A stretch of 64,000 nt of DNA from Arenibacter aquaticus (GTDB lineage: Bacteria; Bacteroidota; Bacteroidia; Flavobacteriales; Flavobacteriaceae): positions 620,001-684,000 of the forward strand of contig NZ_RQPJ01000001.1 of NCBI RefSeq assembly GCF_003957295.1, read 5' to 3'. A program made the translations under genes and the position numbers. Each line of letters opens with the position of its first letter. The first letter of the stretch is position 1. The notes below the pieces were generated by a model, which was given only the letters and a program-made list of their open reading frames with translations, ran no database searches and was not told the DNA's origin. Below are positions 2,311-32,530 of the stretch, one piece after another.

Positions 2311-2630
2311 TATTAGGCAACCCCATTACATTGGAAATATACCTGCCTATTTTCTATGCAGCATTTTCTAATACCCATGAATAGGGCAAGACATAAGGCA
2401 ATAATAAAATGTGTGGGTGTACAGCGGAGGGAATGCTACAACCAAGGGTTTGTTTGCACCTTTCTAAGATAGGGAAAATTAGGAATACTACAACAGCCGT
2501 ACAACACTTAGTCTAAGTCTTTAGATACTATGTTGTTTCCAGTAGCTATTGTTATAGCAGGAGCAAGTTGCTTGCATGACTGGATAGGTGGGTTGGCGCC
2601 AGCGCAGCTTTTCATAAGAGGTATTGTTGG
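2311..2630 (+). repeat. Dispersed intergenic repeat, copy A
   Basis: The copy contains the shared core (GTGGGTGTACAG at 2413, then GGAATGCTACAACC and TTCTAAGATA). Its 3' half is of the CCGTACAACAC...GTAGCTATTGTTATAGCAG type. The terminal palindrome is degenerate (GGAGCAAGTTGC ... GTTGGCGCCAGCG). It ends near an ATTGTTGG motif abutting the stop of the next minus-strand gene. It fills the whole gap between the SnoaL-like gene and the RES gene. Confidence 0.75.
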
Positions 2631-2636
2631 TAATAG

Positions 2637-3677
2637 TTATTTAATTATTCCGTGTGTTAATTTTATATCTTTAATTTCATAAACATTGGTTTTAAAACAT
2701 TCTAATTTTTCAGGGTTAAATATTGCGATGTTATAACCTACCGAATTCAATGAACTTTGGTATTCCACACCGTCAAAGCCCAAAGATTTAATAAATTCCG
2801 ATATATATTGAGTAGGAATATAGTCTAAAAGTTTGTCACATTTTCTAATTGGCAAAGAAAGTTCCTTTTGCAATGTTTGAATGAAAGGAATATAAATTAA
2901 ATAATTTTCTATTTCCTCTATCTCTGACCAATAAATTGGATCGTCTTTTGGATTTCGAAGATTTAATATTTTGATGTCTTCAGTAAGTTTGAACTCGCCA
3001 ACCGTAACATAGTCAAACAGTGAAGCTCTTGTCTCGTACATTGACGTCTCAAGACTATCAGCAACGTATAAGTAAGAAATCCCTTTTGGGTTCGCTCTAC
3101 CACTTGAAGCGAGTTCGATTGGTGGATTTCCCATCTTTTCACATGGGAAACCATTTTCATCCGATACTCGACATCTAAAGAAAATCCTTCCTTTTTTGAT
3201 ATTTCTGTAAAAACTTTCGTGTAGAAAAAATGTTTCTAACTTCTTTAAATCAATTGTATTCTGAATGTGGTAGCGATTTACGAATTTTATCTCCTCTTTA
3301 AATTCATTCCAGACATTATGAATATTATCTGCTTGTGTTTCTAGAAATGGCCTGCGTTTTAAAGAAACATTACTATCGAATATTGGTTGGAAAGTATCAA
3401 TTTCATCTTCAAAAATGGCTTTCAATAGTTCAATAGGACTTACAACAATTTCACTTATTACATTAAAATCTTCTTTTAATGATTTTGAAATTTTCGAATC
3501 TGAACTTTCATCTGGATTATAAAGAGAAAGTATATTTCTAAAAAAAGGTGATAACTCTCTAGCTGAATAAATAGAAGTGTTTACTGTGCTACAAAAATCA
3601 CAAGTTCCAGTTCTATCATCACCATTTATAATGCTAATTAGATATGAACTAGTAAAGCATTTAACACAACAATTCAT
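2637..3677 (-). CDS. HEPN/RES-type NAD+ phosphorylase-like protein
   Basis: Residues 1-30 form a zinc ribbon (C4-x2-C7 and C26-x2-C29). A helical stretch follows, like the N-terminal region found in HEPN/RES proteins. The C-terminal half is a RES domain: R168 in RIFFRCR, the GRANPKG loop at 193-199, the YLY strand at 202-204 and E215 in SMYETRA. RES domains are NAD+-degrading toxins in the Xre-RES systems, so NAD+ depletion is the inferred activity. It is the last gene of a three-gene operon, 2 bp after the sce7725-like gene. The Zn ribbon suggests nucleic-acid or partner recognition. The locus is more AT-rich than its neighbours. Confidence 0.75.
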   Translation of the reverse strand: MNCCVKCFTSSYLISIINGDDRTGTCDFCSTVNTSIYSARELSPFFRNILSLYNPDESSDSKISKSLKEDFNVISEIVVSPIELLKAIFEDEIDTFQPIFDSNVSLKRRPFLETQADNIHNVWNEFKEEIKFVNRYHIQNTIDLKKLETFFLHESFYRNIKKGRIFFRCRVSDENGFPCEKMGNPPIELASSGRANPKGISYLYVADSLETSMYETRASLFDYVTVGEFKLTEDIKILNLRNPKDDPIYWSEIEEIENYLIYIPFIQTLQKELSLPIRKCDKLLDYIPTQYISEFIKSLGFDGVEYQSSLNSVGYNIAIFNPEKLECFKTNVYEIKDIKLTHGIIK

Positions 3678-3679
3678 AA

Positions 3680-4615
3680 TTAAATATTGTTGATTACTAA
3701 TTCAATGTGATTCATTATGGATAATTTTTTCAATGTACCTAAACCTGGAAAATGACCTCTTTGTTGCAAATCTCTAAACACATTTATAGCGGAAGTATTT
3801 AGATTATTTTGGTCGCACCAAATAACTAATTTGTTAATCGCTTCTGAAAATTTACCACCAATATCAGAAACATCTTCATTCGAATCAGATACAAAATGTT
3901 TTACTTTGATTCTATCGTTGTCTAAATAACTTAAATGAATGGCAACAGCTCTTGGTAAGAATCCGGATTCCGAATAGTTGTCTCCTATTGTTAGGAAATC
4001 TGAAAAGCCTACAAAACCGTCTTGTTGATAAAACCTGTACTCATTCGAAAAATCACTTTCTTGGTTTAAATAGTCCGCATTCCTTGATAACTCTTCAAAG
4101 TAGTCGTCTAGACTGACTAAAGTCGCAGGGTCAAATTCACGATAGTATCTTCGACTTGTTTTTGAAAAGTATATTAAGTTGTATGAGATATTTAGTTGAT
4201 TATGCAATAATTCAATATTATGATTACTTATTTCAGTATTATGAATTAAAGTTATTCCGTTATAGTTTATTTCTAATCCATTCAAAAACTGAATTAGAGG
4301 CTGAATGTTGCTTTCTGTTTTTGGGTGAATAATAACTGCTAATTGATAATTATTATAGTCATTTGGTAAAGAAGAACTAATGATTTCAATTATCTCACCG
4401 TATTGATTCTTTAAGTCTCCAACTCTTGGATTAATGATAATATTGAAATTGGCATTTCTGTTAGCTAATTCAACAAGTGTTGTACTCAAAGTACTTGAAG
4501 ATTTTACAGGTTCAATTACCGGTGAAATTTTCTCTAAATCATTTGGGAATAGAGCGCATAATTCTCTTAAAGCAATTAACTCAAATTGCTTACCTCTTAA
4601 ATACGGGAAATACAT
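3680..4615 (-). CDS. sce7725-family (phage beta-protein-like) protein
   Basis: The N-terminus (MYFPYLRGKQFELIALREL, then SPVIEPV) is the hallmark of the T4 beta-protein-like/sce7725 family. The repeated alpha/beta pattern along 311 aa suits a barrel-like fold. There is no signal peptide or membrane segment. Family members co-occur with sce7726 proteins, as here: the start of this gene overlaps the end of the upstream sce7726-like gene by 19 bp, which implies translational coupling. Biochemical function is unknown. The context with a nuclease-like and a RES protein suggests a defence or toxin-related role (inference). Confidence 0.7.
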   Translation of the reverse strand: MYFPYLRGKQFELIALRELCALFPNDLEKISPVIEPVKSSSTLSTTLVELANRNANFNIIINPRVGDLKNQYGEIIEIISSSLPNDYNNYQLAVIIHPKTESNIQPLIQFLNGLEINYNGITLIHNTEISNHNIELLHNQLNISYNLIYFSKTSRRYYREFDPATLVSLDDYFEELSRNADYLNQESDFSNEYRFYQQDGFVGFSDFLTIGDNYSESGFLPRAVAIHLSYLDNDRIKVKHFVSDSNEDVSDIGGKFSEAINKLVIWCDQNNLNTSAINVFRDLQQRGHFPGLGTLKKLSIMNHIELVINNI

Positions 4616-5481
4616 ATTTTGCTATTTTTATTAAGAAATGAGTTTAATTCCTCATATTCATTTTCGGAAAAATCCAAAGTATAACAAATATGTTTTAAGC
4701 TTTCAGGAATAGATTCTTCTTTGATTATTTTTGGATTAGAAATATTTCTTGATTTAAGCTTATTTATTACCAATTTCTGAAATATTGATACCTCTATTTT
4801 TTTAGCAAGATTTAAACATTCTCTAAAAATCAAAGTATTAGAAACTTTAGGTATGAATTTGAAATGCTCTTGAATTAATTCAAGATATTCTTGTTTCCTT
4901 AAAGTCTTAAACAATGTCTCGTGACTAAAAGTTGATGAATTATTTTTAGCCTCTCTCACAGTTTTTAAGGCATTTCTTGAAGTTAACTCAATAATCCCAA
5001 TTGTAGAATTTTCATAAAGCTCAATTAATTTATTAATGTGTTTTGAACTTGTCACTATGTATATTTTATCTGCAAACTTGCAATAATCTAAAACTTGCTT
5101 ATCTATTTTTTCAAGATTATCAAGTTCCGTTTTTATTTCATAAACTCTTGCTTCTCCATTTAATAGAACAAAATCAGCAATTGACTTGCCAATGTTGAAT
5201 TCATTCAATGCAATTGTATTTTTTAAACTGTACTTTTTTAGAAGTAATTTGTTTGTGAGTATATTTTTATAGACGTATTCGTTTTTATAATTTTTTAAAA
5301 GTGATTTGTAAATAAAATTGATAGCATCTAGATTGGTCGTGGCATCTGTAACTGTAGTATATTGTTTTAATTTGTAAAATGTTGAATAATAGTCTCCTTT
5401 TCGCACAATCTTTTTAAAATTAGAAGGCGAAATGATTTGTGATAAACTACGAATTTTACTTATGTCAGTTGCTATTTCCAT
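4597..5481 (-). CDS. sce7726-family protein, PD-(D/E)xK nuclease-like
   Basis: This is the first gene of the three-gene operon (294 aa). It has a restriction-endonuclease-like core: D103 in SIADFVLL and the E115-I-K117 pair in VYEIKTEL, separated by a short loop, as in PD-(D/E)xK nucleases. E94 may add a metal ligand. The following KQVLDYCKFADKIYIVTS strand-helix matches sce7726 proteins. The C-terminal third is helical. This protein is the likely nucleic-acid-cleaving component. It is flanked upstream by repeat copy B, so the operon sits as a block between two repeats. Confidence 0.7.
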   Translation of the reverse strand: MEIATDISKIRSLSQIISPSNFKKIVRKGDYYSTFYKLKQYTTVTDATTNLDAINFIYKSLLKNYKNEYVYKNILTNKLLLKKYSLKNTIALNEFNIGKSIADFVLLNGEARVYEIKTELDNLEKIDKQVLDYCKFADKIYIVTSSKHINKLIELYENSTIGIIELTSRNALKTVREAKNNSSTFSHETLFKTLRKQEYLELIQEHFKFIPKVSNTLIFRECLNLAKKIEVSIFQKLVINKLKSRNISNPKIIKEESIPESLKHICYTLDFSENEYEELNSFLNKNSKICISRI

Positions 5482-5554
5482 CCAAAAACAAATCTACAAA
5501 ATTTAAATTATTGTTTTTTAAACCCGAATGTTACTTCAGAGTGAATCATAATTA

Positions 5555-5762
5555 TTGCCAACTCACCTATAAAATAACTCCCACCTATATTTTCATATAG
5601 CTAGCGCAAATAGTTACTGTTACGTACTATTAATTCTATGTTTTTATAAAATGTTTGTGGGTGTACAGTGGAGGGAATTCTACAACCAAGTTTTTGTTTA
5701 CTCTCTTCTAAGATAAAGAAAATTGGGAATTCTACAACCTCCTAAAACATAAAGCCTAACCT
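5555..5762 (+). repeat. Dispersed intergenic repeat, copy B (3'-truncated)
   Basis: The left end reads GCCAACTCACCTATAAAAT, matching the family end [A/G]C[A/C]CAAC..TA...ATAAAG. The core GTGGGTGTACAG is at 5657, followed by the TTCTAAGATA block. The terminal palindrome is missing: the element stops after a CCTAAAACATAAAGC block, a few bases from the stop codon of the DUF6090 gene. Confidence 0.75.
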
Positions 5763-5765
5763 TTC

Positions 5766-6500
5766 CTATTTTCTATTTAAATAATGATTAATATGCTGTA
5801 TGAGAAGATGAGCTTTTTTCTCCAGAAACTCCCCCTTTTCATGCATAATGTTCGAAAGACTTGAACTCGTCTGTAAAACAGAAATGAGCTCCGGATCATT
5901 CAAATAGTTATCATAGCTAAAGGGAACTCTCTTTGTGTAAGGCCATTCCGAATAACTTTCCAGATAAAAATTCTTAGTTAGGTACGGTTTGATTATTGTT
6001 TGGACTATGTCCACTCGTTCTTTTTCATACTTTCTAAAATAGGGGTAGTCCCGGTTATAGAAATTCGTAATTCTAATCCGAAGGGAATCATTTCTTATCA
6101 GGTCTATTCCTTTTGACTCCAGCAAGCTATATCCACTTTCTTTAGAATCCAAGTGCGGAAACATTTCTGAAATTCTTAAATAAGCAGCAATACTATCTTG
6201 AAATGAAGCTTTGGAACGTATATGGGCAATGACTATGGAGTCGGCATGCATCACAACCTTATCACTATAGAGCTCGTCCTCTATCTGCACCAGATCATCT
6301 TCCAGGTTATCCAAAATTTCAATCAAAATACTTCTTTCCAAATCGCTCCTTTGGTTTTTAATGTTTTTATTATTGATTTGGACCGCAATTAAAATTCCAA
6401 TTACCACAAGGACAATCTCACCAATAGCATAAAGTACATACTTGCTGAATCTGTTTTCAGCCATCAAGCTTTGACGAATTTTACGAAAGAATTTAAGCAT
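5766..6500 (-). CDS. DUF6090-family membrane-anchored protein
   Basis: The N-terminus, with basic residues (MLKFFRKIRQSLM) followed by YAIGEIVLVVIGILIAVQIN at about 23-43, is the signature of the flavobacterial DUF6090 family. It has one transmembrane helix with the rest (about 200 aa) probably periplasmic and helical. Function is unknown; these proteins are common and often multicopy in Flavobacteriaceae. It is a single gene of full family length, bounded by repeat copy B on its 3' side. Confidence 0.8.
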   Translation of the reverse strand: MLKFFRKIRQSLMAENRFSKYVLYAIGEIVLVVIGILIAVQINNKNIKNQRSDLERSILIEILDNLEDDLVQIEDELYSDKVVMHADSIVIAHIRSKASFQDSIAAYLRISEMFPHLDSKESGYSLLESKGIDLIRNDSLRIRITNFYNRDYPYFRKYEKERVDIVQTIIKPYLTKNFYLESYSEWPYTKRVPFSYDNYLNDPELISVLQTSSSLSNIMHEKGEFLEKKAHLLIQHINHYLNRK

Positions 6501-6647
6501 CAGAGGTTGGTTTCCCTAAAGATATGATATTTAATTAATTGCAATTCGGTAAATATGAAGCACAGCGGTTTGTATGCCGCGAAGCATACAGGACATGAAT
6601 ATACTCCTTGCCCTGCATTGTTATTTTTTAGCCCTAACATCCATTTA

Positions 6648-7370: not shown

Positions 7371-7495
7371 TTTTATTGGTCTTTATTGGTTAGTTATAAC
7401 GCTATTTGGTTTGCTGCTTTCAGGTATTCTTTTCAGTCGTTTTTACACATAATGTTCGGTATTATGTATTTTTATACGGGATGGGGCAGTATGAG

Positions 7496-7740
7496 GTACA
7501 ACGTGGATATACAGCATCTACACCCTATAGTGCCAAATAGCTATTATTATCAGCTATTAACAGGCAGCAGCAAGCTATGTTTATTATAAAATCTTGTGGG
7601 TGAACAGTGGGGGGAATGCTACAACCAAATGTAGTTTAAGCTTCTAAGATAAAGAATTTTGGGAATACTACAGCCCCCTAAAACAGAAAGTCTACCCTTC
7701 CCTATTGTTGAGAATAGCATTTGTTATGGTACAAGTCGGT
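7496..7740 (+). repeat. Dispersed intergenic repeat, copy C
   Basis: The left end GTACAACGTGGATATACAGC is at about 7497. The CTATAGTGCC...GCTATTATTATCAGCTATTAA block is almost identical to copy D. The core is at 7596 (GTGGGTGAACAG). The right part decays after TTGTTATGGTACAAG, without the GC-rich palindrome. A hairpin TATACCCAA/TTGGGTATA (7749-7774) lies between it and the AraC gene stop. The 7371-7496 stretch upstream shows nothing recognisable. Confidence 0.7.
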
Positions 7741-7789
7741 TACTCGTTTATACCCAAGGAATTGATTGGGTATAATGAGACTCCACGGG

Positions 7790-8701: not shown

Positions 8702-8702
8702 C

Positions 8703-9215: not shown

Positions 9216-9242
9216 ATCTAAGGTTTTTAAAGGTTTTCCATT

Positions 9243-10196: not shown

Positions 10197-10295
10197 CCCT
10201 GTCTTGATTTTGTTGGGACAAAGATCAGTACATTATCGCCTTATAGCCTTATACACATTTTCAAAAGGTGTATACTTTTTGGTTTTTTCAAATAA

Positions 10296-10690
10296 TACAC
10301 AACATAGCTATAAAGCATCTCCTCTCTATAGTGCCAATTAGCCATAATTATCAGCTATTAACAGGCAGTAGCAAGCTATGTTTATTATAAAATCTTGTGG
10401 GCGTACATCGGAGGGAATACTACAACCAAGGGTTTGTATGCTCCCTTCTAAGATAAGGAAAATTGGCAATACCAAAACTTGCTGTACGATACAAAGTAGA
10501 GCCGTTCCTTAGCTTTGTGGCGCCGATATCTGGCCTGTACCTTTGAATTATGGATGAATAATACAGGCTGCTATATATTAATTAGGTGTTCTTATGGCAC
10601 GAGCAAGATGCCTGCCTGACGGGATAGGCAGGCTCGCGCCAGCGAGGGGATAACCAGGCTTACGGCAGCGGGCCATTGTTGTTCTGAACT
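10296..10690 (+). repeat. Dispersed intergenic repeat, copy D (most complete type)
   Basis: The left end ACACAACATAGCTATAAAGC is intact, and the core starts at 10397. The 3' half is of the GTAGAGCCGTTCC...AATACAGGCTGC...GGTGTTCTTA type, shared with copies I and J. The terminal nested palindrome (10595-10641) has outer arms TGGCACGA/TCGCGCCA and inner arms GCCTGCC/GGCAGGC. It ends in an ATTGTTGTTC motif just 3' of the next gene. Confidence 0.8.
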
Positions 10691-11202: not shown

Positions 11203-11864
11203 TTGTCAAGTATAGGGCATTTACCTAATTAAAACTATATTTTCCCCAAAATTATACCCTTGTTGATGTGCTATTAAATAAAGTGTTTTTTGAAATGTCC
11301 CGCCATTACTATTTATTAGTTTTAGGGAAGTGGACAACTAATTATTACCGGAACCGTTGTTGTTTGTATTGTTTAACTCAACTTGCTATGCAGTTTTCAA
11401 TTCGCCACGATGTGTTTAGTCGGTTTTTTCCACCAAAAAATAATATGCGGTGGTTTCCATCAGTATCTTTTTGTCTTGCTTCTTTCCAATACAATACTAT
11501 CCTAGGATGTATTATAATTGGCAATGAAGTATTCATTTCAATCTTTCCTTTTTAATGTATAGCTATTTCACCACCAACATCTTTCTCAATGGCATTAGGT
11601 ATTTAGTTTTGACGGGTAATTTATTATTAAGGTCTTGCAACGCCATAATTGAGCTTTGAAAGGATAGCCATTCATTGTCCCTTGGACCTTGACCAAGGCT
11701 TGCGTCCCAAAGTAGAATGCTGAACTAGGCCAAACAACATATGAATGCCCTATATAAATCAACTTGCGCCTATATTTCCTTATAGCTATCACAGTTTGCA
11801 GTAAGCAATGATCATTTTAAAATTTTAAAACAACCCTAAATAAGGCTTTGCTATGACTTATAAG
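11203..11864. other. Gene-free stretch with a repeat-like relic
   Basis: No convincing coding sequence is seen; open frames on both strands lack family resemblance and sensible starts. Around 11728-11800 the sequence AACAACATATGAATGCCC ... CGCCTATATTTCCTTATAGC resembles the left end of the dispersed repeat, especially copy I, without its core. It may be a decayed copy. Confidence 0.3.
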
Positions 11865-16203: not shown

Positions 16204-16215
16204 TTTTGGCATAAA

Positions 16216-16580
16216 GCACAATATAGCCATAAAGTACCCCCCCCACTATAGTTCCATATAGCTATGGTAAGTAGGTACAATTAACCATATGATTATTATT
16301 AAATCTTTGTGGATGTACAGTGGGGGAATTCCACAACCAAACATATATTTTCACTATTCCAAGATATGGAAAATTGGCAATTAGGATTATACTTGAACTA
16401 GTTTTATTACAATGGACTCCCCTCTTCCCTATCGGGTAACATTTTTTTAGTGCCTCTAAATAGAAATAGGTATATGGCCTTGCTTCTTTTGGCACGAGCA
16501 AGATGCCTGCCTGACGGGATAGGCAGGCTCGCGCCAGTGAGGTTAAGGTACTTGCGCCGCGGGGGCGATGCTGTTTAGAT
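16216..16580 (+). repeat. Dispersed intergenic repeat, copy E
   Basis: The left end is GCACAATATAGCCATAAAG, and the core (GTGGATGTACAG) is at 16319. The 3' half is of the GGATTATACTTGAAC...CTATCGGGTAAC...TAGTGCCTC type, shared closely with copies F and G. The nested palindrome is at 16490-16536. An open frame inside it on the minus strand (16262-16501) reflects repeat sequence, not a gene. Confidence 0.8.
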
Positions 16581-17139: not shown

Positions 17140-17163
17140 GTGGAGAGTTCTGTTTTAACTACT

Positions 17164-17500
17164 GTCAACTTACAAATAAGGCAACCCCTCAACATAGTGC
17201 CATATAGCCATCGCAAACAACTATTAATAGGCAGCAATAGCTTTGGCTTATTATAATACTATGGTGGGTTTACAGCAGAAGTAATACTGCCACCAAGGGT
17301 TTGTTTGCTCCGTTCTAAGATATGGAAAATTGGCAATTAGGATTATACCTGAACTAGTTTTATTACAATGGACTCTTCACTTCCCTATCGGGCAACATTT
17401 TTTTAGTGCCTCAAAAAAGGAAATAGCTATATGGCCCTGCTTCTTTTGGCACGAGCAAGATGCCTGCCTGACGGGATAGGCAGGCTGGCGCCAGCGAGAA
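17164..17500 (+). repeat. Dispersed intergenic repeat, copy F
   Basis: The left end GTCAACTTACAAATAAGGC is intact, and the core (GTGGGTTTACAG) starts at 17264. The 3' half is almost identical to copy G and close to copy E. The nested palindrome at 17457-17493 has GGCGCCA in place of CGCGCCA. The following 17501-17716 has no gene; it holds a small CCACGC/GCGTGG hairpin near 17660 and a TTGTTGTAGTCG motif at the next gene's 3' end. Confidence 0.8.
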
Positions 17501-17716
17501 GAAAGGAAACTTTTCTTTTCCGTCTGCCGACGCAACTAAAGCTTATTGTTTTGCTTATTCTTTTTTTGTTCCAGAGCTAAATTTGAACATTTTGCTGAAG
17601 CGTAATATTCTATTTAGCGACTTTATAAATATACACAGACCTTTCAACCTGCCACGCTACAGGCGTGGTTAAGTCCTAAAGTCCGCTTTACTTTTAGGTT
17701 TTGTTGTAGTCGTTTT

Positions 17717-18181: not shown

Positions 18182-18210
18182 TTTCTAAAATTTATTTTGG
18201 TTTAGATTAA

Positions 18211-18540
18211 GTACAACTTACACATAAAGCACCCCCCTCTATAGTTCCCTATAGCCATCGTAAACAACTATTAATAGGCAGCATTAGCTTTGCTTATTAT
18301 AATACTATGGCGGGTTTACAGCAGAGGTAATACTGCCACCAAGGGTTTGTTTGCTCCGTTCTAAGATATGGAAAAATGACAATTAGGATTATACCTGAAC
18401 TAGTTTTATTACAATAGACTCTTCTCTTCCCTATCGGGTAACATTTTTTTAGTGCCTCTAAAATGAAATAGGTACATGGCCCTGCTTCTTTTGGCACGAG
18501 TAAGATGCCTGCCTGACGGGATAGGCAGGCTCGCGCCAGC
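18211..18540 (+). repeat. Dispersed intergenic repeat, copy G
   Basis: The left end is GTACAACTTACACATAAAGC and the core is at 18308. The 3' half nearly matches copy F. The nested palindrome at 18492-18538 has arms TGGCACGA/TCGCGCCA and GCCTGCC/GGCAGGC. A minus-strand open frame within it (18297-18497) resembles the one in copy E only because the DNA is repeated. Confidence 0.8.
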
Positions 18541-18581
18541 GGGGGGAGCGGAGGCGGATTAAGTTCACCTATTCATCAAAT

Positions 18582-18656
18582 AACAAGATATTGAATTAAA
18601 CCAATAGCGGTTCGAGTTTACACCCAAACCGCTATTGGTTATATAGATTGTTGTGC
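18582..18656 (-). other. attC-like palindromic site, well formed
   Basis: AACAA (18582-18586) pairs with TTGTT (18648-18652). A long central stem pairs CCAATAGCGGTT (18601-18612) with AACCGCTATTGG (18627-18638) without a mismatch. The right end reads TTGTTGTGCG, as at 0.65 kb. It sits 18 bp from the stop of the VOC gene, as a cassette recombination site would. A terminator role is also possible. Confidence 0.4.
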
Positions 18657-18673
18657 GTTCGTTTTACTTCTGT

Positions 18674-19242: not shown

Positions 19243-20058
19243 TTACTTGTAAAAAGTAGCAGAAAGAGTTAAATTTTCACTTCCCAAAAACTCCTTTGGG
19301 TTGGTGCCCGTAAATTCTTTAAAGTCTTTAATGAAATGGGCTTGGTCATAATATTCGCTTTCGTAAGCAATATTAGTTAAGCTTTTTTTCTCTTTGTTAA
19401 GTAGCATTTTTAATGCTGTTTGCAGGCGAATGACTTTGCCCAACTGTTTTGGACTCACTCCAATTTGGTTTGCAAACTTTCTCTCAAGTTGCCTTCTTTT
19501 GGACAAGTCTTCTTTAAGAATGGTTTTTATCGATTCATTTCCTTTGGTTAACAAAAGCGCATTAACAGTTGATTTTACTATATTCTCAACAAACGATTTA
19601 TTGTTTAATCTTGCTAAGAGAAATTTTTCTATTATTTCTATTCTTTCTTTAATGTCTCTCGCCTGAATTATTTTCTGTTCTAGTTCCTTGGCGGATTTTT
19701 CTTCAAACAATAATTCTATTGGTGTTTCTTTATTTGCTAAATTTTTAATTGGTTCTGATATAAAATTGGCAAATCCGTACGGATAGAATCGGATGGCGAA
19801 TGTATTCACATAGCCTGTAGGTTCAATATAAAATGGTTCAATTGTTTGCCCAAGTACCATTGCACGGGGCTGAAGGATGAATTCATCCCCTATAGTATAT
19901 CGTTTAATATCATCGCCAAGAATAAAAGCCATCTCAATACAGCCATCAGGAACAATCCGTTGTCTTTGCGAATAATTATCAGCAGGAACTTCTAAAGTCC
20001 AATAACAGCTAACAAGCGATTCTAAATCTGGATGAGGCTGAAATGTCTGATAATTCAT
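19243..20058 (-). CDS. AraC-family regulator with DUF6597-like sensor domain
   Basis: The N-terminal half (FQPHPDLESLVSCYWTLEVP, then RIVPDGCIEMAF) is the DUF6597-type domain that precedes AraC helix-turn-helix domains. The C-terminal part reads RQLERKFANQIGVSPKQLGKVIRLQTAL and LTNIAYESEYYDQAHFIKDFKEFTG, the two HTH helices. The MNYQTFQ start is chosen since a GAGCT ribosome-binding-like stretch precedes it; the upstream residues are unlike the family. It is 74 bp from the VOC lipoprotein gene and may control it. Confidence 0.8.
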   Translation of the reverse strand: MNYQTFQPHPDLESLVSCYWTLEVPADNYSQRQRIVPDGCIEMAFILGDDIKRYTIGDEFILQPRAMVLGQTIEPFYIEPTGYVNTFAIRFYPYGFANFISEPIKNLANKETPIELLFEEKSAKELEQKIIQARDIKERIEIIEKFLLARLNNKSFVENIVKSTVNALLLTKGNESIKTILKEDLSKRRQLERKFANQIGVSPKQLGKVIRLQTALKMLLNKEKKSLTNIAYESEYYDQAHFIKDFKEFTGTNPKEFLGSENLTLSATFYK

Positions 20059-20082
20059 TAATAGCTCATTTTTTTCAGTGAC

Positions 20083-20345
20083 ACACAACATAGGCATAAA
20101 GTAACTCCCTACTATATTTCCAAATGGCTACTTCTACGTACTATAAACCAAGTTATTGTTATAAAATTTCCGTGGAGTTCAGCAGGAGGCATACCATCAC
20201 CCAGACCTGGTGAACAAGCTTCTAAGATAAAGAATATTGGCAACTTTACAACCACCGTACAAAACAAGATTTAAGTCTATCTCCTACTTACCATTAGTAG
20301 CTCTTGTTATGGCAGGAGCAAGGTGCCAGTGCAAGTGGTGTAACT
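20083..20345 (+). repeat. Dispersed intergenic repeat, copy H
   Basis: The left end ACACAACATAGGCATAAAGT abuts the 5' side of the AraC gene. The diverged core is at 20172 (GTGGAGTTCAGC). The 3' half is of the CCGTACAAAACAAG...AGTAGCTCTTGTTATGGC type, as in copies A and K. The final palindrome is broken (GGAGCAAGGTGCCAGTGC). No other feature is seen before the forward gene at 20460. Confidence 0.75.
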
Positions 20346-22641: not shown

Positions 22642-23033
22642 ATACACTACCCAGGTATTGAGTAAGCTGCGCCTATTTTCCCTTATATCAATCGTAAATA
22701 GCACTTAATAGGCAGCAATAACCTATTGGTAATTAGCAATATATTGTGGGAGCACAGTGGGAGGAATACTACAAGCACTCTACAACACAAAGTAGAGCCG
22801 TTCCTTAGCTCTGTGGACCCGATATCTGCCCTATACCTTTGAATTATGGAAGAATAATACAGGCTGCCATATGTTAATTAGGTGTTCTTATGGCACGAGC
22901 AAGATGCCTGCCTGACGGGATAGGCAGGCTCGCGCCAGCGAGGGGGCCTGTCGGATTAGGCAGGCCGGCGCCAAGGCGTTTTATTTCGCGATAGGCTGTA
23001 CCGCCAAAAGAAGACCTAGTTATTGTACGCTCG
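22642..23033 (+). repeat. Dispersed intergenic repeat, copy I
   Basis: The core is at 22746 (GTGGGAGCACAG) and lacks the TTCTAAGATA block, so a short internal deletion is likely. The 3' half is the copy D type (GTAGAGCCGTTCC, AATACAGGCTGC). The nested palindrome is at 22891-22937, and a second one (GGCCTG ... GCAGGCC, 22945-22968) is directly joined. It ends in a TTATTGTACGCTCG motif before the next gene. The region 22551-22641 shows nothing. Confidence 0.75.
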
Positions 23034-23065: not shown

Positions 23066-23581
23066 CTAATTAGTTGACTCTTCTGCTGGCGAATTTGAGT
23101 TGGCAATGTCTCTGAACAACTTCCATTTACCATCTTCTTTCTTCCAAAGAATAATATATTTTTCTTCTGCAACCGTATCATCGTTCACATAAACAGTCAC
23201 TTCACCCTCTTCTGCCAACAAATCTTCGGTGCCAAAAACTTCTTTAGTTTCAAGGTTTATTCTTGTTACTCCAGAATTAATAATACCTGAAAATAGTTTT
23301 TGAATATTTTCTCTTCCAGTTACAGAAGGTGCTCCTGCAAACATTACTTTGGCATCTGCAGTGTATGAATTTGCTATCCCAATAGAATCTCCCTTTGCCA
23401 GAAAAGTCATAAATTTCTTGTTGGCTTCTTCAATTTCAGCTTTGGCGGTCGTTAGATTAAATTCGGTTACCGGTGGTTCCTTTTCTTTGGGCTGTTCCTT
23501 ACAACTTTGAAATCCAAATACAAAAATGCAAACTGTTAGCAGTACAGCCATTTCGTTTAATAATCCTGATATTTTTTTCAT
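23066..23581 (-). CDS. DUF4440/SgcJ-type NTF2-fold lipoprotein
   Basis: A signal with a lipobox-like FGFQSC near residue 27 is followed by a DUF4440/NTF2-like domain: ANKKFMTFLAKGDSIGIANSYTADAKVMFAGAPSVTGRENIQKLF, then WKKEDGKWKLFRDIANSN. In this superfamily the pocket binds small ligands and function varies. The lipid anchor suggests periplasmic action. It is a single gene flanked by repeat copies I and J. Confidence 0.8.
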   Translation of the reverse strand: MKKISGLLNEMAVLLTVCIFVFGFQSCKEQPKEKEPPVTEFNLTTAKAEIEEANKKFMTFLAKGDSIGIANSYTADAKVMFAGAPSVTGRENIQKLFSGIINSGVTRINLETKEVFGTEDLLAEEGEVTVYVNDDTVAEEKYIILWKKEDGKWKLFRDIANSNSPAEESTN

Positions 23582-23664
23582 AATATTGGTTAGTTATTAA
23601 TTGCCTACTTTGTTCGGTTTTCGGCCTTCCCGTTTTGTTTATCAATAGCGTTGGCAAATGTGAC

Positions 23665-23960
23665 GCACAACCTAAGTATAAAAGAACTACACCTACATGT
23701 TACCGTAAATAGCTATTATGAATAGGTATCCATACGCTTTGTTATAATAAAATTTTTGTGGAAGTACAGCGGGGGGAATACTACAACCAAGTGTTTGTTT
23801 GCTCCCTTCTAATATAATGAATATTAGCAATACTACAACCACCGTACAACACAAAGTTTACCCCCGCCCTAGGCTCAGGAATTCCTAAAACAGACTAATA
23901 ATTCAGGCTGCTATATGTTAATTAGATGTTCTTATGGCACGAGCAAGATGCTAGCGCCAG
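23665..23960 (+). repeat. Dispersed intergenic repeat, copy J
   Basis: The left end is GCACAACCTAAGTATAAAAG. The core starts at 23758 (GTGGAAGTACAG). The 3' half is partly of the copy D type (TTCAGGCTGCTATATG). The terminal palindrome has lost its inner arms: TGGCACGAGCAAGATG is joined straight to CTAGCGCCAG. The rest of the gap to 24045 has only a GGGG/CCCC hairpin near 24015. Confidence 0.75.
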
Positions 23961-24369: not shown

Positions 24370-24544
24370 GCTCTTTCTTTTGCTCCTGAGGGTTAGTGTA
24401 TGAAAGCTAGCCAATTATAAATGCTATCCTTTCATTTTGGAACAGACTCCAAATATAGCAAAACGGATTTGGTGCTTCAGCAAAGCCACTAATATTTCCA
24501 AAAAATCTTAGTTGCCATATTTTCTTTTTTAACCAATATTTTAA

Positions 24545-25009
24545 TCATAGTGGTGGTCCTACAAACTCCTGTCCGTGTTTTGCTGAAATTTCTGCCATTT
24601 CTTCCAATGTTAAGGCTCCCTCTTTAGAGCGTTTATAAAATTCCCGAAACATTTCTTCAATGGTCTTGGCTGGGGAGAAAATGTAACGCAGTCTTGCACT
24701 TGTATCACCTACATTTTTAAATGCGTGTACTGTTCCTTTGGGAATAAAGGCTACATCCCCTGGCTTAAATTCAAACATTTCACCTCCTACTTCTGCGATA
24801 AATTTTCCTTCCAAAAAGAAAAATGTTTCGTCTTGATGGTGGTGAATATGCCTTCCTGGACCTACTCCTGGTTCAACAATATCTTCAAAAATTGCTTGGA
24901 TTCCGTTGGTATGCTTTCCGGAAAGGAGTATTTTCAAAGTAATAGCATTGGGAAAAATCAGTGTTTCGGCCAAATTGTATACACTATGTATTGGAACTGC
25001 ATTTTTCAT
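24545..25009 (-). CDS. Cupin-domain protein
   Basis: This is a single conserved-barrel cupin. The metal-binding first motif is visible as G-x-H-I-H-H-H-x3-E (GRHIHHHQDETFFFLEG), and the second as PGDVAFIPKGTVHAF with the last histidine. The 154-aa length fits a monocupin. The MKNAVPIH start is preferred because the longer frame reads into repeat copy K. Many such proteins are dioxygenases, isomerases or metal-binding stress proteins. The C-terminal helix (IEEMFREFYKRSKEG) is typical of quercetinase-like cupins. Confidence 0.8.
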   Translation of the reverse strand: MKNAVPIHSVYNLAETLIFPNAITLKILLSGKHTNGIQAIFEDIVEPGVGPGRHIHHHQDETFFFLEGKFIAEVGGEMFEFKPGDVAFIPKGTVHAFKNVGDTSARLRYIFSPAKTIEEMFREFYKRSKEGALTLEEMAEISAKHGQEFVGPPL

Positions 25010-25041
25010 CTTCCATGATTTATTGGTTAAATTTTCTATTC

Positions 25042-25293
25042 GGAACGGTGGAGGGAACACTACAACCAGGGGGTTGTTTCCTCCTTTCTAAGATAAGGAA
25101 TATTGGCAATACCACAGCCACCGTACAACACTGGATTTAAGTGTATATTTCCTAGGTTATTATCAGTAGATCTTGTTGTGGATGGGGCAGGATGCCCCCC
25201 TGAAGGTATAGTAAGGCCGGCGCCAGCAGGGGTACTTATGGCAGGAGCAAGATGCCTGCCTGACGGGATAGGCAGGCTCGCGCCAGCGGGGGC
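25042..25293 (+). repeat. Dispersed intergenic repeat, copy K (5'-truncated, double tail)
   Basis: The left end and first part of the core are missing; it starts at GGTGGAGGGAACACTACAAC. The 3' half is of the CCGTACAACAC...CAGTAGATCTTGTTG type. Two terminal palindromes occur in tandem: a diverged one at about 25182-25224 and a good one at 25239-25285 (GCCTGCC/GGCAGGC, GCTCGCGCCA). Confidence 0.75.
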
Positions 25294-25330
25294 GACAGTA
25301 GGGGACATGAATGCCCTTCCAAAGCATAAA

Positions 25331-25354
25331 AAACCCAGCACGGTGGCTGGGTTT
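25331..25354 (-). terminator. Intrinsic terminator
   Basis: AAACCCAGC/GCTGGGTTT with a 6-nt loop lies downstream of the stop codon of the lipoprotein gene at 25379. On the minus strand it is followed by a run of T, so it should end that transcript. Confidence 0.75.
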
Positions 25355-25378
25355 CTTATTAAAAGAAGCCTTATAAGT

Positions 25379-26518: not shown

Positions 26519-26810
26519 AATTATTCAATTTAAGATTTACGTTTTTTGAAGCTATAATGAATCAAGTTGCAAACATATACATTTTAACAAGAAAAATCTT
26601 TAATGAAAGGAGGTGGTTAAGGGAGGTCAAAAAGTAAAAAGGGCACCCGAGTCTATTTAATTATCCATTGTCCCTTGCCTATGTACCCAGACCAGTATAG
26701 GATGGGAGCAATTACTCCCAATTAGGCAAACAAAAGCTTCCTCATAGCTCCTTCAGTTTATTGGACAAATTTTAGCTGCTGCAACCTTACTTGAAATACT
26801 CTGGGCAAGT

Positions 26811-27389: not shown

Positions 27390-27501
27390 TTCTCAAAATT
27401 CTATAGAGGTTATTTATTGGTTCTTAGGGCTATTGCCCCACTATACTCCGCTTTGGGGGCTTGCCTTTGTCAAGACCCTTTTTACAAACCGCTGAATACC
27501 G

Positions 27502-28452: not shown

Positions 28453-28814
28453 TTCATATCATTTTACTGCTAAAAATATCCAACAAAATTGGCCCATTGT
28501 TAGAAGCGATAAAAAGTAAGGTTTTGTACATTCCAATACATTTTTAGATGATATGCTACCATGCCTAAGCTATCAACAGTGCGTGAAAAAACTAATGCAC
28601 CCAATCCGTCTTGCCCATTACATATACTTTTGCCTGCCCGTACAAATCAGACACATGTTCGACTATATTATTCTGGTGGGGGAGTGGGCCGGTTATATTT
28701 TTTATTCTAAGCACAAAGACGTAAAGTTTCTACAACTACTTAAAAATAAGTAAAAGTTAAAACATAACACTATGACCAGATTACTCTTACGTTTTGTTAG
28801 ACACCCGCTTTCTG
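28453..28814. other. Gene-poor stretch
   Basis: An open frame on the plus strand (28553-28753) has no recognised similarity and is not trusted. Near the HigA 3' end, GTTAGAC at 28796-28802 fits the integron core consensus GTTRRRY, but no convincing partner arm was found. Confidence 0.25.
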
Positions 28815-29171
28815 CTAGTAGTCCTGAACCAAAACTTCAGTTGGAATATGTAAAGTGGTATTAAGTTTTCTTATCATATCCAAAGTTAGTTTACGCTTTT
28901 TACTTAAAATCTCACTTACACGGCTCTTATAACCTACGACCTCTGCCAAGTCTTTTTGCTTCATTCCCATTTGTTCCATTCGGAATTTAATGGCCTCAAT
29001 AGGATCTGGCATTCCAATAGGAAAATTCTCGTTTTCATATTGGTCGATTAAAATCGATAAAATTTCGAGTTCGTCTCCTTCTTCACTACCCTTTTCGGCA
29101 TCGAATATCTGTTCTAGACGCTTAATTGCGTTCTGATAGTCCTTTTCGTTTCTTATAGGTGCTATTTTCAT
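28815..29171 (-). CDS. higA: HigA-type antitoxin with HTH
   Basis: With the MKIAPIRNEKDYQNAIKRLEQIF start the protein is 118 aa. The N-terminal segment is typical of the HigA-like antitoxin that pairs with PF09907-type HigB. The C-terminal HTH_3 domain reads MEQMGMKQKDLAEVVGYKSRVSEILSKKRKLT. It binds its own promoter and the toxin. Its ATG follows the toxin stop by a single base (TAA-A-ATG), so the two are translationally coupled, with toxin first as is usual for hig. Confidence 0.85.
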   Translation of the reverse strand: MKIAPIRNEKDYQNAIKRLEQIFDAEKGSEEGDELEILSILIDQYENENFPIGMPDPIEAIKFRMEQMGMKQKDLAEVVGYKSRVSEILSKKRKLTLDMIRKLNTTLHIPTEVLVQDY

Positions 29172-29172
29172 T

Positions 29173-29493
29173 TTATATTTCGTTTGCATTAATTTTATCA
29201 TACTCAGCATGTGTCCCAACAAAGCGAATCCAACAGATCTGGTATTCAAAATTGAACTTTGCTATTAACCGATATCTATTGCCCTTTATGTTAAAAACAA
29301 TTCGATTGTCCTTTAGTATGCTTGCGCTTGGATATTCAATTTTTAGCTCGTTCAAGTTTTTAAATTCAGATTTTTCAGTTTCCCTATACCATGCGGTCAA
29401 TTGTTGTTCACTATCCTCGTGCTTGGTCCAAAATTCCCTTATAGTTCTTTTCGCTATTACTCTCAAAACGAGTTCTTTAGAGCAAATATACAA
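29173..29493 (-). CDS. higB: HigB-type toxin (mRNA interferase)
   Basis: The VIAKRTIREFWTKHEDSEQQLTAWYRE start and the SASILKDNRIVFNIKGNRYRLIAKFNFEYQICWIRFVGTHAEYDKI body match the HigB_toxin family (RelE superfamily), a ribosome-dependent mRNA-cleaving toxin. The likely true start is the TTG at 29466 (LRVIAKRT), since family members begin there; the annotated longer start adds nine residues. A gap of one base separates it from higA. A toxin-antitoxin pair is a usual stabiliser of accessory regions. Confidence 0.85.
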   Translation of the reverse strand: MYICSKELVLRVIAKRTIREFWTKHEDSEQQLTAWYRETEKSEFKNLNELKIEYPSASILKDNRIVFNIKGNRYRLIAKFNFEYQICWIRFVGTHAEYDKINANEI

Positions 29494-29587
29494 AAAGTTA
29501 CCAAATCGGTAACATTACCTCTAACTTTGGACACAGCTCCCTAGCATCGAGTTGTACAGGAGCAGGGAGTTTTATTAAAAGAGAATA

Positions 29588-29788
29588 GTGGCTTTTTCTA
29601 GATTGCCTTCCCCTGGCGACTATCTGGTTTTCGTGAACACAGCGGGCAATTTGATGAATTTTTATGAAACGGAGGCCCACCTCTTTGAGCTGTCGCAAAA
29701 TCTTTATATAGATTAGGATACAGAAAACCTGGAAATAGAACAGCTGTTCAATGACGCGGACCTCAGTATGGGAAAGGAGAAATTTTGA
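29588..29788 (+). pseudogene. Possible decayed ORF fragment
   Basis: A plus-strand frame reads like protein (GDYLVFVNTAGNLMNF, HLFELSQNLYID, then DTENLEIEQLF, ADLSMGKEKF) but has an in-frame TAG at 29714-29716 and an upstream stop. The composition looks coding, but no family was identified. It may be the end of a broken gene on the opposite strand to its neighbours. Confidence 0.25.
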
Positions 29789-29823
29789 ATGGGGAAAACC
29801 GACTTATATAAGTATATCTTCTT

Positions 29824-30533
29824 TTAAATCTCAATTTTCTTTTTAAGAAAATCTCCCCACTTTTCCCAGCTGAAATAGCTACTTGGGTGTTTGATAAATA
29901 TCAGCTTTATTTCTTTATTGTCATCAAGTTTAAGGTTCCCGGTTCTTGGATATGATGAACCAATTCTTGAATCTTCCTTTTCAATGTCTAGAAAAGTTAT
30001 ATTAAGGGATGGTTTAGGTTTCAGTACGTTGTAGTGGTTAGTAGATTCTACCCCTAAGAACAAACAAATGTCAGGTTTTAAAATGGATACAACTCCATCG
30101 AAAACTTCCCACCCTTTTATAAAATCTTGAGCATCGGGCCTAGCATTATTATATCTAGATGATAAAGCTCTTTGTATGAACACATAATACGAGCTATTAC
30201 TCCATTATTCCATTTATGTTCATTTTCTACATTTTTACTTTGAAAAATTGATCGTTCTAAATTCCTTAAAACATTAGCATTAACTATCCCATCCGAAAGA
30301 AAATGAAGTCCTCTCTAATTAATAAAATTTCTTGTAAAATCTGGGTTTTTTAAATACTCAATAGATTCTTGATCATCCTCTTCTTTATCCCATTCATAAT
30401 GACTTTCACCTATTATTAATACTTTGGGTGCAGAGGTATTGTTTAAATAATTTTCTCCTATCCAGGGAGTCCATTTTAATTCATCTATTTTATTAAACTC
30501 CAAATCCAAACTTTTATCGAAGTGATATTCCAT
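29824..30533 (-). pseudogene. Broken uracil-DNA-glycosylase-like gene
   Basis: Two frames belong to one gene. The 5' part encodes LKWTPWIGENYLNN and VLIIGESHYEW, reminiscent of uracil-DNA-glycosylase-like proteins. It stops at TAG 30315-30317, but the same frame continues open (RGLHFLSDGIVNANVLRN and on). About 110 bp later a single-base shift near 30202-30203 moves the reading to the 3' frame (SSYYVFIQRALSSRYNNARPDAQDF, ILKPDICLFLGVESTNHYN, HPSSYFSWEKWG). One nonsense mutation plus one frameshift suggests a recently decayed gene. A sequencing error could explain either, but hardly both. Confidence 0.55.
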
Positions 30534-30620
30534 GTTTTATTTTATTATAGTTTCCTTTTTTAGGGAAGCCTACCTATTGACCAAACCAAATGTAACATAG
30601 CAATTCGTTTTTAGCCTGTT

Positions 30621-30748
30621 AACAACGGTTTGTATAAAATAGTAGCCGATTTTGAAGCACTAAACTTTCGGTTAAACACATACTTTGATAAAAGCCTAAA
30701 GCCTTAAGTTTATTACTGTTTCGCCTGCTTTTCATAGGAGGCATTGTT
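30621..30748 (-). other. attC-like palindromic site with nested arms
   Basis: Three arm pairs nest in order: AACAA (30621-30625) with TTGTT (30744-30748); AGTAGCCGA (30641-30649) with TCGCCTGCT (30721-30729), one base unpaired; and TAAACTT (30661-30667) with AAGTTTA (30706-30712). Paired outer and inner boxes with an extra base in one inner arm is the architecture of integron attC sites. It lies 3' of the DUF1569 gene. Confidence 0.45.
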
Positions 30749-30829
30749 TGGCAACTTACTTTTGTGTTCTGCTATTAACTCTTTTTAAATTCACTTGATG
30801 TTTTCACTTTTAATTGCTTTCCTCTTTTT

Positions 30830-31282
30830 TCATACCCCAAATTGTCTCAAATGGTGGTCAGTATGCTTATAGTCCAAATATCCTATTTGCTCTTTTGTCA
30901 TCTTTCCAAAAAAAGTATGAATAAAATCGGGATTTGAAAAATGTTCAAATTCTCTGATTAAATCAATCCATTTCTCTTTTTGAACTGATACATTTCCGTT
31001 GCTTTCTGTTACTTTAAGTTCATCTAAAGTTCCCATATTTTGCTTCAATGGTCTTTCATCTTTTATCATACTTTTCAAAGCCATTTTCCCAAATATTTTT
31101 CCAATAAATGCTTGTTTATATATTGGATTGTTCTTCCCTAATAACCATTCATCATAAAGAGTGCAATGTTTCAGCATTTGTGAAACATTCATTTTGCCCC
31201 AATTGGCAGCACTATTTTCATGTAGTAATTCAATTCGGGCAATCAAGCCGTTTCTGGTGGTTTTGTCAAAAATTGTTTTCAT
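30830..31282 (-). CDS. DUF1569-family (DinB-like) protein
   Basis: The protein (150 aa) has the DUF1569/DinB-type pattern: ARIELLHENSAANWGKMNVSQMLKHCTLYDEWLLG, then FFGKMTKEQIGYLDYKHTDHHLRQFG. The histidines H40 (LKHCT) and the C-terminal H-x3-H pair (HTDHHL) would hold a metal in a four-helix bundle. Cytosolic, with unknown substrate; members are bacillithiol-dependent or unknown enzymes. The gene is single, with an attC-like palindrome on its 3' side. Confidence 0.8.
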   Translation of the reverse strand: MKTIFDKTTRNGLIARIELLHENSAANWGKMNVSQMLKHCTLYDEWLLGKNNPIYKQAFIGKIFGKMALKSMIKDERPLKQNMGTLDELKVTESNGNVSVQKEKWIDLIREFEHFSNPDFIHTFFGKMTKEQIGYLDYKHTDHHLRQFGV

Positions 31283-31497
31283 TCCGTAATAATAAGTTTG
31301 ATCCCAATAATCTTTTAAGGCTAACCTTAAACCGGCAATTTAATTCTCAATTCCATTTTTACAGTAGTCCTTTAGCTAGAAATGTCGTTTTTTTAGCTTG
31401 TAGGCAACATCTCGTATTAGAATAGTTGCGGGTTTACCTGCGAGGAATTTCCGTCTTGCCACGCTTTTTAGAGTGGAGGAAAATTAGATAAAACAAA

Positions 31498-31547
31498 CAA
31501 CAACTTATAATAAAACACAAAAGAGCAGTTAATTTTATAAGTTGTTG
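31498..31547 (-). other. Perfect 13-bp inverted repeat
   Basis: CAACAACTTATAA (31498-31510) is perfectly complementary to TTATAAGTTGTTG (31535-31547), with a 24-nt loop. It lies 77 bp 3' of the small lipoprotein gene and has the same AACAA/TTGTT outer pattern as the attC-like sites, so it is grouped with them. A terminator is an alternative. The wider gap 31283-31624 has no gene. Confidence 0.45.
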
Positions 31548-31624
31548 TAGCACGTATTTATTTCCTAGTGTTTTTTATAAGGGACTCTATTTGGTTTAAC
31601 CATAATATGCTATCAAAGTGAATA

Positions 31625-31801
31625 TTACAATTCTCCTATTGGTACAGGATCGGAAAAATCACAAGGGACTTCAATGGTTTTATCAGGAAGAGGGCCGTAT
31701 GGTCCATATCCCCCGTATAGGGTCTGTGTTTTAGTGCAATCATCTTTAGAGCAACTAAATGCTAACATTAGTATAGCACAAAAAAGTACTTTTTTAAACA
31801 T
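31625..31801 (-). CDS. Small lipoprotein (58 aa)
   Basis: A short ORF with a classic Bacteroidota lipoprotein leader, MFKKVLFCAILMLAFSC, with lipid Cys17 followed by SKDD. The mature part is 41 residues, rich in Gly, Pro and Tyr (YGGYGPYGPLP) with two more cysteines. No family was recognised. Leader quality and the stop and start context support coding. It is too short for a catalytic domain. Confidence 0.6.
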   Translation of the reverse strand: MFKKVLFCAILMLAFSCSKDDCTKTQTLYGGYGPYGPLPDKTIEVPCDFSDPVPIGEL

Positions 31802-32081
31802 TTTTGGGAATTATTTGTTTTATGAATTGTTTTGTTGACTATTACATTAAGCCTCTATGTAAACGATCGAATCCTTCTTAAGTTAACATTTCAATAGTTT
31901 TTTTATCAATTAGGTTCTGATTTTTCCCGTACTTTTTAAAATTCAGATTCGGCAAAATTTATATATATCCATTTTGCTGATATTTTATTCTGTCAGTATA
32001 ATTTTGGTTAGTGTAATTAAAAAAAGGGGCAATTTTTTCCATTTATGGTAGGCAATTCCGTTTTTCCGCTTTTGTTCGATT

Positions 32082-32270
32082 CTAATCACGAACAGTTTTG
32101 AAATTTCCAAAAATTAAAGAAGTAAGTAAAAGTCCGATTCCAATTCCGATAAAAGAACCCTTTGTAAAATCAGGTAATTCAAAATATTGAGATGCAATTT
32201 GTGAAGTTGCAATTGCAAGTATTCCAATTGATAATAAAATTAAAGCTTTTCTTTTTGTTATTCTTTTCAT
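32082..32270 (-). CDS. Small membrane protein (62 aa)
   Basis: A basic start (MKRITKRK) and two hydrophobic helices (ALILLSIGILAIATSQIA and SFIGIGIGLLLTSLIFG) predict a two-pass inner membrane hairpin. No family was recognised. It is a single gene in a gap-rich area, and the composition and hydrophobic periodicity favour a real gene. Confidence 0.5.
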   Translation of the reverse strand: MKRITKRKALILLSIGILAIATSQIASQYFELPDFTKGSFIGIGIGLLLTSLIFGNFKTVRD

Positions 32271-32357
32271 TTAATCTAGATTTTAAATAATTAGTATCTC
32301 AATTTAAGCATTTGTTATATTGAGTTATTGAATAGAGCGAAGTTTTGTCAAATTGTT

Positions 32358-32530
32358 GCCAACATACATACAAAGTAACCCGCACCTATATTCCCATATA
32401 GCAAGCGTAACTCCTTACTAATACGTACTATTAGACCCATGATTACTATAAATTTTTGTGGGTGTACAGTGGGGGGAATACTACAACCAAGTGTTGATTA
32501 CAGCCCACTAATATAAAAAATATTGGTTCT
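32358..32530 (+). repeat. Dispersed intergenic repeat, copy L (3'-truncated)
   Basis: The left end GCCAACATACATACAAAGT follows ATTGTT directly. The core is at 32459 (GTGGGTGTACAG). It ends after an AATATAAAAAATATTGG block; the 3' half and palindrome are missing. This is the last copy: none was found from here to the right end. Confidence 0.75.

Follow-up and report, generated by a model that had tools for sequence, protein, structure and literature searches.

Intergenic repeats in a 64,000-nucleotide stretch of the Arenibacter aquaticus genome (contig NZ_RQPJ01000001.1, positions 620,001 to 684,000; referred to here as the window) were analyzed, and sequence comparisons indicate that this repeat family, designated R1, is probably a set of dispersed attI-like receptor sites of a flavobacterial variant of the integron, attI being the site at which an integron takes up foreign genes. 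This variant, whose integrase is unusual, seems to be spread across marine Flavobacteriaceae, and the R1 copies seem to belong with it. The cassette region of the window would have arisen by insertion of gene cassettes at R1, followed by decay.

An earlier note on this DNA had listed 12 copies between positions 2,311 and 32,530, and all of them aligned over ∼200 bp and had the sequence blocks that it had listed. A sequence-only model of 201 positions, built from 11 of the 12 copies, scored them from 149.3 down to 59.8 bits in a search of the genome. All 12 lay on the plus strand and none was found in the window past 32,530, which bears out the single orientation and the absence from the half with the polysaccharide utilization locus. 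Because all larger genes of the array but one are on the minus strand, R1 is best read on that strand, and all R1 features are given here in that reading direction (−), although the first reading had been made on the plus strand. Alignment together with profile searches placed the copies at 2313-2506 (copy 1), 5552-5749 (copy 2), 7491-7685 (copy 3), 10293-10488 (copy 4), 16212-16389 (copy 5), 17160-17349 (copy 6), 18207-18395 (copy 7), 20079-20264 (copy 8), 22642-22783 (copy 9, with an internal deletion), 23660-23851 (copy 10), and 32355-32530 (copy 12). Copy 11 (25029-25130), placed by profile searches, is truncated and has no attI-like part; near 25,042 the right-hand part alone (model 99-200) is present. 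A weak 13th remnant lies at 11752-11815 (E of 0.0023 in one profile search and 0.07 in another). The right end of R1 is more variable and longer than had been described, extending to ∼350 bp and carrying a GC-rich hairpin in many copies, and the size of R1 ranges from 200 to 350 letters. Most copies lie between genes, as had been claimed for all of them, but two R1 ends overlap uncertain starts of open reading frames (ORFs; 19243-20097 and 24545-25060). Among 41 R1 copies in the Arenibacter regions analyzed, the neighboring gene at the CAAC/GTTG end points away from that end in 36, with a median gap of 58.5 bp.

The GC-rich hairpin at the right end of many copies resembles a repetitive extragenic palindromic (REP) sequence, with the core GGCACGAGCAAGATGC..GGCGCCAGCG. 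Such hairpins were found at window positions 2544-2618, 10584-10658, 16479-16553, 17436-17510, 18481-18555, 22880-22954, and 25168-25302. The 16-nt hairpin core has 14 matches in the genome at ≤2 mismatches, 8 in the window array and the others on contigs C5, C10, and C19. Two Y1 transposase genes like those of REP-associated tyrosine transposases (RAYTs), both above the Pfam cut-off, are located at C5:640410-640634 and C4:820966-821298 of the same genome, and these are possible partners of the hairpin.

Use of the aligned copies as a profile, the check that the earlier note had proposed, recovered the family across Arenibacter rather than the window copies alone. In the 5.23-Mb genome there were 21 R1 matches at E ≤ 0.1, including the 12 named copies. 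The nine others consist of three on the plus strand at C4:446.9-451.4 kb, two on the plus strand at C5:705-706 kb, the remnant at 11,752, and single minus-strand matches on C5, C19, and C16, the last of which is weak. R1 was present in 9 of 13 Arenibacter genomes (that of A. aquaticus included) and in none of 8 other genomes from the order (E ≤ 0.001). A survey of 149 Flavobacteriaceae genomes with stricter filters (one genome per genus, E ≤ 1e-4) found it in A. aquaticus alone (0 of 148 for the other genera). In a tree of 33 R1 cores, which carries no support values, the 11 window copies included cluster together, next to a further copy from the same genome, and copies of congeners tend to cluster with those at the same locus in other species. 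The single group of window copies probably reflects local amplification.

The candidate integrase is a tyrosine recombinase of 375 amino acids encoded outside the window at C19:710,901-712,025. It scored 206 bits against the integron-integrase model TIGR02249, below the cut-off of 265, and 233 bits against the XerA/integron model, above the cut-off of 220. Relative to IntI4, it is ∼42 amino acids shorter at the site of the IntI-specific insertion (the additional domain, or I2 helix), and it carries an N-terminal extension of 107 amino acids in which no Pfam model was matched at E ≤ 0.001. An AlphaFold model based on 22 homologues had a mean predicted local distance difference test (pLDDT) score of 81.9 and a predicted template modeling (pTM) score of 0.58, and its best matches in the Protein Data Bank (PDB) were XerA, an archaeal Xer, and IntI4. 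Relatives with at least 58% identity over nearly the full length are encoded in 10 of 14 genomes of the genus. Another genome (G007) has a 276-amino-acid piece at a contig end with 80 to 83% identity, and only more distant matches were found in G002 (42%), G008 (34%), and G021 (33%). All 14 genomes also match the query through Xer-like proteins.

At 10 of 11 Arenibacter loci (e.g., L076 7458-7838), the integrase gene has a divergent neighbor that encodes 126 to 133 amino acids. The product of this neighbor has a treble-clef match just under the cut-off and is perhaps a regulator or accessory factor. Three recombinase genes in G004 (304-amino-acid open frames near C1 positions 1308640, 1623705, and 1629327) have equal scores against the integrase query. 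Two of them are 100% identical and have an identical neighbor gene, and one lies ∼5 kb from an R1 copy; these genes probably represent an unrelated tyrosine-recombinase transposon.

Directly after the integrase stop codon there is a palindromic site such as GATATATAGTAACTTGTTACTATATCCATACGTTG, and a palindromic site ending in GTT was found behind the integrase at ten Arenibacter loci with the closer integrase and in many other genera. Of 80 named integrase loci, 62 extend at least 700 bp downstream, and in 41 of these 62 the box after this GTT has a downstream reverse complement of at least 9 nt (control, 20 of 310). An uncontrolled walk onward from this site, in which chance may account for some steps, yielded 181 cassettes and 130 attC sites in 51 Flavobacteriaceae loci. 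Position 10 of R′, which was left free in the selection of boxes, was A in 177 of the 181 cassettes, and 118 of the 130 attC sites fell into two length classes (138 to 149 nt, 77 sites; 202 to 210 nt, 41 sites). For 16 integrase-proximal Arenibacter cassettes that we chose from maps, complementarity was greater between a cassette's own ends than between mismatched ends (5.88 versus 3.66; p = 0.0002). The 118 distinct attC sites of these loci fold with a mean z of −2.5 on the sense strand and −3.5 on the bottom strand.

These loci resemble an integron in that the integrase gene is followed by an attI-like site and same-strand cassettes with complementary R′/R″ ends, and in that the flavobacterial attC sites, in their two length classes, fold on the bottom strand. 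In contrast to classical integrons, in which the box is GTTRRRY, the cassette boxes consist of GTT, seven variable bases, and A, T. Further differences are the 107-amino-acid extension of the integrase, the lack of the IntI-specific insertion, and, in Arenibacter, the many attI-like sites away from the integrase. Thus, the system appears to work like an integron, but its recombinase lies outside the IntI family as defined. Across loci L076 to L175, the R′ A noted above, which adjoins the variable bases, faces a position of R″ that is C in 144 of 181 cassettes, and this A/C mismatch could serve recognition in the manner of an extrahelical base. Just behind the integrase stop codon, Winogradskyella, Psychroserpens, and relatives (L123, L127, L130, L134, L142, and similar loci) have two tandem palindromes, which are perhaps a double attI.

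The 3′ ends of R1 resemble these attI sites, the likeness being anchored at the GTT and also apparent in alignment by eye. A matrix built from 13 integrase-adjacent sites (7 from Arenibacter and 6 from other genera, with three shorter Arenibacter sites left out) was used to score the 982 GTTG, ATTG, and GTTA sites of the window's minus strand. Six of the ten R1 ends tested in the window took ranks 1 to 6, namely, those of copy 8 (20086-20123, rank 1), copy 12 (32360-32397, rank 2), copy 4 (10300-10337, rank 3), copy 2 (5559-5596, rank 4), copy 3 (7499-7536, rank 5), and copy 6 (17166-17203, rank 6), all in minus-strand reading. Another two R1 copies from the same genome came first in their regions (1 of 306 and 1 of 273), and nine congener R1 ends ranked between 1 and 34 of 569 to 821. 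With a hidden Markov model (HMM) of ten integrase-adjacent attI sites, an R1 end of G005 was the second best match in 514 kb (E = 8.7e-7). The top match (5.9e-7) lies just before a G006 gene whose G003 homologue comes first behind an R1 copy. R1 ends make up 15 of the 40 best attI-HMM matches, two being opposite-strand readings of the palindrome.

A common 3′ boundary at the GTT of an integron site weighs against the earlier note's suggestion of a non-autonomous mobile element, for which nothing was found in support. R1 would then be similar to a REP or a miniature inverted-repeat transposable element (MITE), situated between cassette genes, with its attI likeness representing a landing site or an acquired sequence. 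Dispersal of the copies over several loci would fit such an element, as would the box-like inverted ends of congener copies, the REP-like hairpin in many window copies, and the two Y1 transposase genes of RAYT type described above. However, orientation is fixed within arrays, and the grouping of the window copies and of congener copies by locus, in a tree without support values, fits local amplification and inheritance. Furthermore, none of the 28 array proteins scanned against Pfam, a subset of the ORFs, is transposase-like, in agreement with the note's statement that there is no transposase. It therefore seems improbable that R1 is such an element.

A second repeat family, with the core GGAAAGCAA..TTGGCTTATAGTTTG, was observed in the cassette arrays of G005, G003, and G010 (e.g., G005:C25 35049 and G003:C16, reversed, 28028). 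It has a different leader from R1 and a similar attI-like 3′ end, and it precedes cassette-like genes. Because this family also ends like attI, there may be several leaders.

Cassettes with matching ends were found behind 5 of the 41 R1 copies. In these cases, the gene or genes behind R1 are followed, 1 to 13 nt past the stop codon, by a 9- to 10-nt complement of the R1 GTT box, compared with 1 of 246 control windows. One is at C4:446.9 kb of the A. aquaticus genome, two are in G002, and one each is in G003 and G004. In a smaller set, a matched cassette end was present behind 4 of 9 congener R1 copies. The A. aquaticus cassette (C4:444,883-446,938) has GTTGCCCACAAT at C4:446,938, three genes, and ACTGTGGGCAAC five bases past the last stop codon; another gene follows, and then an attC of the 206-nt class (E = 2.1e-46). 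A sixth case, in G010, was not counted: its 9-nt match opens a match to the attC model but overlaps the end of an ORF.

In the window, attC models derived from the integrase-adjacent arrays gave four minus-strand matches, with none between 34 and 64 kb; a reversed-sequence control gave no match below an E of 0.1. The four are an attC of the 206-nt class with its 3′ part cut (17498-17708; E = 6.6e-21, model 7-174), two remnants (18556-18657, E = 0.016, model 5-109; and 30622-30703, E = 6.4e-5), and an attC of the 140-nt class (31398-31554; E = 1.7e-5, model 2-142). At two of these places, R1 (copies 6 and 7, respectively, for the first two sites) stands directly behind a truncated attC. The array thus has four attC matches, three with E < 1e-4, and no integrase was found among the 28 window proteins scanned. 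It therefore resembles a cluster of attC sites lacking integron integrases (CALIN), in which at least two attC sites occur with no integrase nearby, but differs in that attI-like R1 repeats outnumber attC remnants. An initial search of 47 intergenic regions for canonical attC pairing, with a strict AAC/GTT rule that left many regions unscored, had found no excess over shuffles or the opposite strand.

Gene content and order differ strongly among the orthologous arrays of four congeners. A 5-kb block that lies between two R1 copies in G005 is missing from G003 and G010, where there is a single R1, flanked on the left like one of the two G005 copies and on the right like the other. At an orthologous operon of G010, G003, and G002, the adjoining R1 copies each precede a different gene, and similarity, judged by eye, ends at GTTG. 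An empty-site comparison of G010:C77 with G002:C7 gave no clean boundary.

The block difference could also be explained if R1 had a regulatory or RNA-level function, as a promoter, leader, or terminator, and had been amplified along with cassette genes by chance, with homologous recombination between R1 copies giving the rearrangements. The constant place of R1 just 5′ of genes and its conserved core would be in keeping with this. However, Rfam searches gave no match at R1 in the window array and no match in six congener loci, no conserved base pairs were found in the cores of 33 copies, and the flavobacterial promoter motif TTG-N17-23-TAnnTTTG was not in excess in the R1 leader (1 of 41 copies versus 0.79 in shuffles). 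Such an element would leave both the attI likeness and the matched cassette ends unexplained. A regulatory element is the least probable of the explanations considered here. The Rfam search of the window array, run at an E-value threshold, gave one chance-like match in addition to a DUF805b-like RNA match. The latter (23602-23634; 33.6 bits versus a gathering score of 35.6) lies between R1 copy 10 and the gene at 23066-23581.

The possibility that R1 is instead a giant attC of old cassettes with a conserved inner sequence, comparable to the long Vibrio repeats discussed below, was also evaluated. It is in line with the single orientation of the arrays, with the length of true attC sites of this system (as long as 202 to 210 nt), and with inverted box-like sequences at the two ends of congener copies (ACAACGGATATA ... 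TATATCC-GTTG). However, eight window copies showed no attC-like fold (mean z, +0.32; paired end boxes in 0 of 8), whereas the 118 true attC sites fold by the z values given above, and pairs are not conserved across the 33 cores. The upstream partner of the 5′ box was unconvincing in nine congener copies, being only 5 to 7 nt in eight and 9 nt at a distance of 2.3 kb in one. That R1 itself was a long attC had been the first idea, and it was dropped after the upstream-partner search and the folding test; we consider it unlikely.

The most likely course of events is cassette insertion at the attI-like end of R1 by a recombinase acting in trans, followed by decay and recombination between R1 copies. 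A complete R1, read on the minus strand, would consist of a conserved leader of ∼150 to 300 bp and an attI-like site of ∼35 to 40 bp ending in GTT. The 375-amino-acid recombinase encoded on C19 would join a circular cassette, through its attC, to R1 at the GTT, so that a captured gene would start shortly downstream of R1 in the correct orientation. Under this interpretation, the window would be an old CALIN-like cassette region without an integrase of its own, in which most cassette ends have decayed and what persists between genes is R1 together with a few attC remnants. R1 copies may also recombine with one another as direct repeats, deleting or shuffling the genes between them. We infer the action of the integrase on R1, a role for the leader, and the route by which R1 multiplied.

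Several results weigh against this interpretation. The distribution of R1 does not fully match that of the integrase: the integrase is present in three of four R1-free Arenibacter genomes, and the assembly of G002, with two R1 copies that have intact cassettes, contains no close integrase but only the recombinase with 42% identity, which has no recognizable attI. No R1 was found in integrase loci L076 to L087. The remaining four of the ten tested window ends scored poorly in the attI matrix (ranks 79, 127, 327, and 337 of 982), and attI-HMM matches at R1 ends are mostly weak. A plain attI would not need the inverted box at the other end of congener R1 copies. The earlier note's second proposal, a long recombination-site family tied to cassette-like genes, is largely upheld by the attI-like minus-strand 3′ ends, the attC sites of the array, and the cassettes on some copies in this genome and in congeners, but no cassette with a matching end lies behind any of the 12 in the window. 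Behind the copy at 23,660, a 9-nt match occurs 5.0 kb away, and 7% of control positions reach the same. As a set, matching ends were undetectable both in the window (p = 0.29 for 21 units) and among the R1 arrays of congeners (p = 0.78 for 30 units, of which one lacked a scorable box), which we read as a result of age and decay. A more far-reaching reading, a multi-attI integron in which one trans-acting integrase, with its own N-terminal domain and without the IntI helix, serves many leader-bearing chromosomal attI-like sites, is conceivable, but we lean against it.

Gene families in the window include SnoaL, DUF1697, glyoxalase, OmdA/DUF1801, DUF1569, HigB with HTH_3, Fic, RES, and cupin, and such families often occur in cassettes. 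Three genes at 2637-5481, which encode a RES domain protein with a HEPN-like N terminus, a CTD5 (ABC three-component) protein, and a protein with a PADLOC-candidate match (‘cll’; E = 6e-17), are possibly a defense cassette. A toxin-antitoxin pair of HTH_3 and HigB type is present at 28815-29493; HigB-type pairs are common passengers of cassette arrays.

The repeats of the Vibrio chromosomal integron (VCRs) are long attC hairpins that lie in the same orientation between cassette genes. R1 copies are likewise long, same-orientation repeats between cassette genes, but unlike VCRs they do not fold like the attC of their own system. In mobile integrons, attG sites and delta-attI cassettes (PMC12901181) likewise bring into cassette arrays recombination sites that are neither a primary attI nor attC, whereas R1 is a conserved, amplified, genus-wide family with a long leader. 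The integron-like subgroup of simple tyrosine recombinases (PMC8138268) is one of the closest known systems. In an IntegronFinder 2.0 survey, one complete integron is listed in Bacteroidetes proper, in Salinibacter ruber (PMC9024848), and two reviews name Bacteroidota merely as one among the phyla with integrons (PMC8618304, PMC9668308). Among the open-licence PMC papers listed in literature searches, none dealt with an integron that has this integrase in Arenibacter or another member of the Flavobacteriaceae, and such literature may exist elsewhere.

If the integrase loci work as integron platforms, marine Flavobacteriaceae would hold a cassette pool that surveys of the IntegronFinder type may miss. 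Their recombinase would act on attC without the additional helix described as necessary for IntI (PMC7790495), and the origin of single-strand integron recombination would be directly testable. Dispersed attI-like repeats, if their role is as proposed, would explain how cassette regions grow away from the integrase. A multi-attI integron, if true, would mean several cassette islands instead of one array, with gene capture at many places in the chromosome.

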